NCBI RefSeq assembly: GCF_011765465.1
Contig: NZ_CP050265.1
Coordinates: 2,068,501-2,132,500 of the forward strand
Length of the DNA: 64,000 nucleotides
Source of the DNA: Erythrobacter sp.
Lineage (GTDB): Bacteria; Pseudomonadota; Alphaproteobacteria; Sphingomonadales; Sphingomonadaceae
Direction of reading: 5' to 3'
The notes below the pieces were generated by a model, which saw nothing but the letters and a program-made list of their open reading frames with translations, made no database searches and was not told the origin of the DNA. Shown here in pieces: positions 13,796-19,763 of the stretch; the first letter of the stretch is position 1; every line of letters begins with the position of its first letter. The translations under genes were made by a program, and so were the position numbers.

Positions 13796-13894
13796 TTTTT
13801 GTGGCGCGCTCACGCTCGGGCGCAGCACCGCGCCCGCCCTCGCCCTCGCCCTCGCCGGCCGGCGTGGCGACAGGGACAGCACTTGCAGGTGATG

Positions 13895-17559: not shown

Positions 17560-18999
17560 ATGCACGATATCCGCCTGATCAGGGACGATCCCGAGGGCTT
17601 CGATGCCGGCCTCGCCCGGCGCGGCGCGGAGCCGGTCGCTAAGACGCTCCTCGCGCTCGACGAGCAACGCCGCGCGCTCACCACCCGCCTGCAGGAAGCC
17701 CAGAGCCGCCGCAACGAAGCCTCCAAGGCGATCGGCAAGGCGATGGGACAGGGCAACACCGAAGAGGCCGAAAAGCTCAAGGCCGAGGTTGCCGAACTGA
17801 AGCAGGCCATGCCCGAAATGGAAGAGCGGCTGGCGAAGGTTTCGGCCGAACTCGACCACGCGCTTGCGATCATCCCGAACATCCCCGCCGCCGACGTGCC
17901 CGAAGGCGCTGACGAGGAAGACAATGTCGAGGTCTCCCGCTGGGGAACCCCGCGCGAATTCGACTTCGAGCCGAAGGAACACGCCGACATCGCGCCCGCG
18001 CTCGGCATGGAATTCGAGACCGGGGCCAAGCTGTCGGGCGCGCGCTTCACCTTCCTGCGAGGCGACATGGCGCGCCTGCACCGCGCGCTCGGCCAGTTCA
18101 TGCTCGACAGGCAGGTGGGCGAGAACGGCTACACCGAATGCAACCCGCCCGTGCTGGTCAAGGACGAGGCGATGTACGGGACCGACAAGCTGCCCAAGTT
18201 CGCCGAAGACAGCTTTCAGACCGCAATCGAGATCGACCACGCTAGCTTTAAGGCGCAACTAATCGAAATTGCATCAAAACAAGTTGCGGCAAAGCGATTG
18301 GGCGACGATGAATCTGAGATCGAGCTTCTTGATCGGCTAGCGGGTATGGCAGCCGATCAGGCTAAGGAATTGCGAAGCGGAGGCCGCCGCTGGCTAATAC
18401 CCACCGCCGAAGTCTCCCTCACCGCGAGCGTCATGGGCGACATCCTCGACGCCGATGCCCTGCCCATCCGCCTGACCGCGCTCACCCAGTGCTTCCGCTC
18501 CGAAGCGGGCGCGGCGGGGCGCGATACGCGGGGCTTCATCCGCCAGCACCAGTTCGAGAAATGCGAGCTCGTCAGCATCGTGAAGCCCGAGGAGTCCGAG
18601 GCCGAACATCAGCGGATGCTCGCCTGCGCCCAAGGCGTCCTCGAGGCGCTCGGCCTGCCCTATCGCACCATGCTCCTTTGCACCGGCGACATGGGCTTCG
18701 GCGCGCGCAAGACCTATGATCTCGAGGTATGGCTCCCCGGACAGGGCGCATGGCGCGAGATTTCGTCCTGCTCCAACACCGGCGATTTCCAGGCGCGGCG
18801 GATGAAGACCCGCTACCGTCCGGAAGGCGAGACGAAGAAGACCGAATTCGTCCATACCCTCAACGGGTCGGGCCTCGCCGTGGGCCGCACCCTCGTCGCG
18901 GTGATCGAGAACTACCAGGAAGCCGATGGCAGCGTGGCCATTCCCGAGGCACTCCACCCCTACATGGCCGGCACGACCCGGCTGGAGCCGAAATCCTGA
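17560..18999 (+). CDS. serS: Seryl-tRNA synthetase with an in-frame insertion
   Basis: SerRS charges tRNA-Ser (and tRNA-Sec) with serine. The N-terminal coiled-coil tRNA-binding arm (about 25-110) is followed by the class II catalytic domain with motif 2 [14 protein letters not shown] and motif 3 [11 protein letters not shown]. The length is 479 residues against the usual 420-430. The excess lies between SFQT (218-221) and WLIPTAEV (from 278): about 55 residues, rich in Ala/Glu/Lys, coded by DNA of about 51% GC with codons rare here (CTA, ATA, TTG). Motifs on both sides are intact, so the enzyme is probably functional. The stop overlaps the surE start (TGATG). Confidence 0.96.
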
Positions 19000-19763
19000 T
19001 GCGCATCCTTGTCACCAATGACGACGGCTACCATGCCCCCGGCCTTGCCGTGCTGGAGGAGATCGCCGGGCAGTTCTCCGACGACGTGTGGGTCTGCGCC
19101 CCGTCCGAGGAACAGTCGGGTGCGGGCCATTCGCTCACGCTAAACCACCCGGTGCGGCTGCAGAAATTCGCAGAGCGGCGCTATGCCGTGACCGGAACAC
19201 CGACCGACAGCGTGATGCTGGCCTTGCGCGAAGTGCTCGACACGCCGCCCGATATCATCCTGTCGGGGGTAAATCGCGGGGCCAATCTCGGCGACGACAT
19301 CACCTATTCGGGCACAGTTTCGGCCGCGATCGAAGGGGCGCTCGCAGGGGTGCGCTCGATCGCATTGAGCCAGGTCTACAACGGCGAGACGCACGGGACC
19401 GAGGAGGAATTCGCCGCCGCGCGCGAATGGGGACCGAAAGTGATCGCCCCGCTGCTCGACGCGCCGTTTGCCGAGCGCACGCTCGTCAATGTCAATTTCC
19501 CGCCCCGCCCGGCGGGCGAGGTGCGCGGCATCCGGGTCGCGCGGCAGGGCTTCCACGATTACAAGCGCGGCACGGTGGTCGAGGGGCGCGACCCGCGCGG
19601 CAAGCCCTATTTCTGGTTCGGGCTCGACCCGATCGAGCACACGCTCGACCATGGGACCGATCTAGAGGCGATCGACGACGGTTATGTCGCCGTCACCCCG
19701 CTCCAGCTCGACCTCACCCATTACCCGACCATCGGCGCGCTGGCCGACCGGTTCAGCGGATAG
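18999..19763 (+). CDS. surE: 5'/3'-nucleotidase SurE
   Basis: This 254-residue metal-dependent phosphatase acts on nucleoside monophosphates. The metal-binding NDDG (7-10) at the N-terminus and the conserved SGVNRGANLGDDITYSGTV block are present. The ATG shares one base with the serS stop (TGATG at 18997-19001), so serS-surE are translationally coupled, a common arrangement in alphaproteobacteria. Confidence 0.96.
   Translation: MRILVTNDDGYHAPGLAVLEEIAGQFSDDVWVCAPSEEQSGAGHSLTLNHPVRLQKFAERRYAVTGTPTDSVMLALREVLDTPPDIILSGVNRGANLGDDITYSGTVSAAIEGALAGVRSIALSQVYNGETHGTEEEFAAAREWGPKVIAPLLDAPFAERTLVNVNFPPRPAGEVRGIRVARQGFHDYKRGTVVEGRDPRGKPYFWFGLDPIEHTLDHGTDLEAIDDGYVAVTPLQLDLTHYPTIGALADRFSG

Follow-up and report, generated by a model that had tools for sequence, protein, structure and literature searches.

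The serS gene and its insertion

The window, the whole 64,000-nucleotide stretch of DNA analysed here, carries serS as a single open frame with no interruption. In Pfam the product shows the N-terminal and the class II core domain of bacterial class II seryl-tRNA synthetase (SerRS), with the TxE motif and the core residues conserved, and as the one SerRS gene matched in its genome it probably retains serine-charging activity. The features discussed below are as follows.

17560..18999, + strand: serS, class II seryl-tRNA synthetase, stop included (479 aa open reading frame; Pfam Seryl_tRNA_N and tRNA-synt_2b; solved SerRS chains match)
18202..18207, + strand: residues 215-216, directly 5' of the cassette, variable according to whether a cassette is present (column association)
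18217..18390, + strand: hypervariable cassette, residues 220-277 (codons Q220 to R277, between F219 and W278), 58 codons in place of 6 (comparison with insertless relatives)
18238..18297, + strand: predicted hairpin helix 1, residues 227-246 (AlphaFold2 model, pLDDT blocks 69-82)
18316..18381, + strand: predicted hairpin helix 2, residues 253-274 (AlphaFold2 model, pLDDT blocks 64-76)
18403..18411, + strand: TxE motif, T282-A283-E284 (sequence; T282 and E284 invariant in a 69-row alignment)

T282 of the TxE motif, which we take to be serine-binding, is the fifth residue past the cassette. The original prediction of an in-frame insertion in the catalytic domain, ahead of motif 2, was borne out by comparison with the nearest relative among the genomes compared (G358, locus L200), which has 6 codons at this site and no cassette in a serS that is 91–93% identical. 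The alignment of the two breaks after 18215 and restarts at 18388, leaving an empty site of 16 nt in G358 and a net insertion of 52 codons. Between 8036 and 27773, G358 and the window align throughout except at 18216-18387 and at 13797-13893, the latter being the sole other break across the compared 20 kb. Solved bacterial SerRS structures also align in two parts, stopping at residue 221/222 and restarting at 277/278 (three alignments listed), and the two SerRS matches in the genome itself are two pieces of one serS gene. The stop codon of serS shares bases with the start codon of the gene that follows (TGATG, 18997-19001), presumably surE.

The 174-nt cassette has a GC content of 0.54, while segments of the same length elsewhere in serS are all at or above 0.615. 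Our recount of 18241-18380 gave 50.7% GC, against an original estimate of about 51%, and reproduced the two CTAG sites reported there (18242 and 18337). The original prediction also found no strong internal palindrome, and we likewise observed no repeat or inverted repeat of at least 10 bases in 18180-18430. The cassette has no match in Pfam or in Rfam.

We searched for further copies, as had been proposed alongside the insertion. By DNA, the cassette occurs once in its own genome, within serS (E up to 0.001). By protein, a search of 114 genomes of the genus returned, besides the cassette itself, just four matches (E 0.056-0.097), so that none of the 113 other genomes gave a match better than E 0.05. 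Cassettes of cluster A3 were confined to three expected serS genes in the genus and appeared in 0/298 genomes of the family (none known beforehand as a carrier), and cluster A4 was found in one serS gene with one weak partial match (E 0.008). Small proteins yielded no stand-alone homologue of cluster A3 in a search that requires shared 5-residue words; the same kind of search found none for the window cassette and also missed the related P0010. A likeness to the palindromic elements of Rickettsia, suggested at the outset, therefore fails on the palindrome, on the second DNA copy and on protein matches in the genus. A selfish in-frame mobile element of that style, aimed at serS, would suit the patchy, low-GC, in-frame cassettes with their sharp borders. 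It is nonetheless a very improbable explanation, given that the window cassette has neither palindrome nor repeats nor second copy and that clusters A3 and A4 are confined to serS save for one weak partial match.

A two-state site with patchy occupancy

SerRS homologues (120 matches listed) carry either a short turn or a cassette ahead of the WLIPT motif, and the DNA loci agree. Insertless alleles have a turn of 5-6 residues, mostly TTDDR or TTDGR, and the turn is much alike in insertless alleles of other alphaproteobacterial families. Every cassette that was read is bounded by the conserved positions F219 and W278, and the lengths range from 45 to 98 aa. Two of the homologue searches used a cassette-bearing query, which enriches for cassettes, and the sample for the tree described below inherits this bias; frequencies were counted with an insertless SerRS as query.

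In the genus, 100 genomes were searched and 96 could be resolved (of the rest, three gave no match and one a partial match). A cassette was present in 18/96, each of the 18 having one SerRS locus among the matches listed. In the family the count was 6/99 genomes (at least 90% complete, the window's own genome included), leaving 93/99 without. Three family members (G051, G053 and G077) gave only a divergent SerRS match, with 36–39% identity to the query. Other families of the class had cassettes in 5/110 alphaproteobacterial genomes with a match (112 searched). A draw across the phylum gave 4/32 for other-family alphaproteobacteria, including G442, which is also part of the class count, and 0/98 for resolved genomes outside Alphaproteobacteria (103 searched; four without a match and one partial). 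Seven of the eight cassettes outside the family were read directly; that of G453 was deduced from a gap between its matches.

Of 161 loci, 157 gave genes readable by a pattern that accepts open frames only, and no locus was lost for a broken frame: among the remaining four, L009 carries a cassette, L111 has none, and L159 (G315) and L160 (G121) are uninterrupted insertless matches. We built a tree by a quick method from the flanks, excluding the cassette, for 127 sequences (43 with and 84 without a cassette) after removal of duplicates and of one short cassette-bearing row (L157). The tree requires 29 changes of state, 16 of them forced by well-supported branches. Shuffled states gave a mean of 36.4 changes, and no more than 29 were needed in 0 to 3 of the 500 shuffles. 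Thus, presence of a cassette is somewhat clustered yet far from clade-like. Among 76 protein pairs with flanks about 95% or more identical (rounded; an ungapped comparison of pairs that are not independent), presence differed in 9, the cassettes differed in 6, the same cassette was shared in 3, and 58 had none.

The cassette is not an old shared indel of the lineage, since it is missing from the nearest genomes compared. In this respect the original reading is supported. What the comparison shows is not a single captured segment but one allele of a recurrent, hypervariable and patchy cassette at a fixed site, a point invisible from one genome.

Unrelated cassettes selected as protein

The 75 unique cassettes fall into 37 BLASTP clusters (E < 1e-3) with no common core, and the same clusters turn up in different genera. 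Their ends are more alike, with T at position 2 in 36/44, R as the last residue in 32/44 and R second last in 35/44. Three cassettes of 97-98 aa (L036, L059 and L158) look like a separate class without these T...RR ends. GC content is below that of the gene itself in all 44 family cassettes with DNA. GC3 is 0.54 in cassettes compared to 0.81 in the gene and does not correlate with the host (r -0.05); the shift is nearly limited to the cassette, although of the four codons directly 5' of it three are also lower. Outside the family, GC was lower than in the host gene in 6/6 cassettes measured.

Coding of these segments was assessed in three ways. None of the 44 unique cassette DNAs, which come from the window and its family relatives, has a stop in frame 1, compared to a mean of 3.3 stop-free after shuffling, and the other frames are open in just 0-11/44. 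Pairs from the same cluster have pN < pS in 13/13, a set which leaves out a fourteenth pair (L144/L142) from different clusters. Cassette pS also exceeds flank pS in 13/13; it is near saturation (0.62-0.99), so the pN/pS ratios are rough, and weaker codon bias, not older divergence, may be behind the high values. Selection within clusters appears purifying, not positive. Cysteine codons occur once in 2500 in frame, compared to 53 and 94 times in the other frames and 61 expected, and cysteine makes up 2 of 4200 residues across the 75 unique cassettes. TGY triplets are common in both other cassette frames, though cysteine is nearly absent. Together, the open frame, pN < pS and cysteine avoidance show that cassettes are translated and selected as protein.

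The number of unrelated clusters agrees with a loop that tolerates any soluble helical hairpin, under selection just for foldability, where cassettes enter by rare illegitimate recombination, drift fast and are lost through recombination with insertless alleles. Some support comes from insertion II (G254-N261) of human cytosolic SerRS. It lies close to the loop by approximate alignment, and PMC10817482 places it near the active site and ascribes to it a negligible part in aminoacylation. A merely tolerated hairpin does not readily explain clusters that recur across genera with pN < pS, GC3 near 0.54 regardless of host GC3, near-total avoidance of cysteine, or the many state changes on the tree. 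We consider it rather unlikely, although it is the main alternative to a role in conflict, set out below.

Conservation of cassette clusters as protein would also suit a docking domain for a host partner, serving regulation, localisation or tRNA channelling, by analogy with the insertions and extensions through which eukaryotic SerRS are described as interacting with partners (PMC10817482). Complete variation between close relatives and absence from 93/99 family genomes are unexpected on such a reading, which is improbable.

Predicted fold, probable exchange and a proposed role in conflict

Structure modelling, also proposed at the outset, placed a pair of helices in the window cassette with moderate confidence (AlphaFold2; see the features above). 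The unrelated cassette of P0099 was modelled with helices at 227-243, 245-250 and 253-271 (pLDDT blocks 83-93). Two unrelated cassettes are therefore both predicted to form helical hairpins just ahead of the TxE loop.

We compared alignment columns between disjoint close pairs with and without a cassette (17 pairs) and pairs both without (19 pairs). Residue 216, beside the cassette, differs in 7/17 compared to 0/19. Columns 380, 381 and 407 reached z 5 in an association shuffle that ignores relatedness. Together with column 406, they lie on the active-site side, and all four differ in 0/17 pairs with and without a cassette; the apparent co-change of 380, 381 and 407 is carried by distant rows and was rejected. 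Separately, the C-terminal columns 473, 475 and 476 (18976-18996, residues 473-479) differ in 7-8/17 compared to 1-2/19.

The constancy of columns 380, 381, 406 and 407 is in keeping with a merely tolerated hairpin, and the constancy of 380, 381 and 407 weighs against a hairpin that reshapes the entry to the active site and protects from albomycin-type small molecules that mimic seryl-adenylate. The TxE motif begins only five residues past the cassette, and albomycins are SerRS inhibitors (PMC9032320). Evading a small molecule would presumably need no unrelated, exchanged sequences, and we think such protection quite improbable.

Evidence on how cassettes change comes from close relatives. The proteins P0085 and P0119 show 0 differences at residues 217-296, which include the cassette, and 28 in the rest of 1-418 (82% identical ungapped and 93% gapped overall). 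An identical cassette with diverged flanks suggests cassette exchange; vertical descent under strong constraint is a possible reading of the same pattern. A second pair, P0026/P0042 (88% ungapped, 97% gapped), appears to favour exchange more weakly still. In sister pairs the identity of the flanks stays level right up to the cassette border, and a long imported tract was rejected on that basis. The similar turns across families suggest that replacement of the allele explains a return to the insertless state more easily than a series of exact deletions would.

A phage or plasmid source was also considered and rejected, with no cassette-sized surplus in the SerRS matches listed (the best 20 of 25 phage and 20 of 100 plasmid records). 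SerRS spans 1218-1272 nt in six viral contigs, which leaves no space for a cassette. Large Brevundimonas phages (records H9 and H13-H18) have a SerRS of their own, which matches without such a surplus.

We propose, at a probability of about 0.4, that the cassette is an allele-swapped, diversifying hairpin on the SerRS surface, offering a changeable shield or docking site against a rapidly evolving protein that would attack the enzyme or hijack it. What we observe is that unrelated low-GC sequences occur patchily at a fixed site and are selected at the protein level. The window cassette belongs to one of 37 low-GC clusters that occupy the same SerRS loop in an alphaproteobacterial patchwork, and it is predicted to fold as a helical hairpin close to the serine-binding loop. 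Strains would likely swap cassettes by recombining across the conserved flanks of serS; we infer that exchange is the main route of change and that conflict drives it. We favour this reading since one site in a conserved enzyme holds unrelated modules, which are apparently exchanged there. It is doubtful, if conceivable, that phage or competitor proteins grip SerRS beside the serine pocket and that the traded hairpins make serS a polymorphic immunity locus.

Several results weigh against conflict. Selection within clusters looks purifying, presence is somewhat clustered on the tree, and most family genomes lack a cassette. Exchange is argued from one protein pair, with flank identity flat to the junction in sister pairs. 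The non-family cassette L193 is hardly below its host gene in GC (0.50 compared to 0.51), and its GC3 is higher than the host's. Locus linkage, PADLOC and PHROGs yielded no candidate attacker or partner. PADLOC gave matches no better than E 0.02, all in the coiled coil at the N-terminus, and the best PHROGs match (E 0.0086) paired the 98-aa cassette type with a family without assigned function. For linkage we compared 34 cassette with 56 insertless loci (at least 5.5 kb, same-genome duplicates kept). None of the 45 ORF clusters listed marks cassette loci, and a linked partner gene was rejected, the largest excess being just 15/34 compared to 15/56. The gene immediately downstream of serS is present in 32/34 cassette and 56/56 insertless loci; some 3' genes are rarer in cassette loci, for which shorter fetched stretches may account.

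Aminoacyl-tRNA synthetases are essential and highly conserved. The complete turnover of a fixed-site module between close relatives, its distinct base composition and its cysteine avoidance suggest a selection on SerRS that has gone unrecognised. Were conflict the driver, there would be an undiscovered class of SerRS-targeting proteins, with the cassettes as a handle to find it; were the cassettes neutral, the loop would be an unusually permissive, naturally used insertion site within an essential enzyme.

Comparison with known systems

Judged from search results rather than full texts, the literature holds no recognisable account of such a SerRS cassette. Human insertion II resembles it in lying in the catalytic domain near the active site (PMC10817482) and, by approximate alignment ranges, close to the loop. 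Insertion II is an 8-residue lineage trait of cytosolic SerRS in higher eukaryotes, whereas the cassettes have 45-98 residues and are hypervariable and patchy. The palindromic elements of Rickettsia are likewise short in-frame insertions inside genes (about 150 bp; PMC10969869), palindromic by name, and dispersed over unrelated genes in ten families. The serS cassettes differ in being non-palindromic, at one site and in 37 clusters, and dispersed copies were not found. A template repeat, as in diversity-generating retroelements, was not found in the window's genome, where serS holds the only copy at E up to 0.001.

Inteins are domains that carry splice motifs and measure about 130 aa or more; the cassette has 58 residues and matches nothing in Pfam. 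Translational bypass elements are untranslated and hence free of selection on frame, while cassettes are open in 44/44, avoid cysteine in one frame only and have pN < pS. Conserved signature indels are in-frame indels of conserved proteins that are common to a clade, and studies of them reportedly exist for Spirochaetes and Xanthomonadales. The cassette is also an in-frame indel of a conserved protein but switches between close relatives, with 29 changes on the tree, and is missing from the nearest genomes compared. Finally, the target-recognition domains of HsdS are unrelated modules within conserved flanks, of a kind known from restriction and surface systems. The cassettes share this arrangement of unrelated modules between conserved flanks and, unlike the HsdS modules, sit in an essential enzyme of translation.
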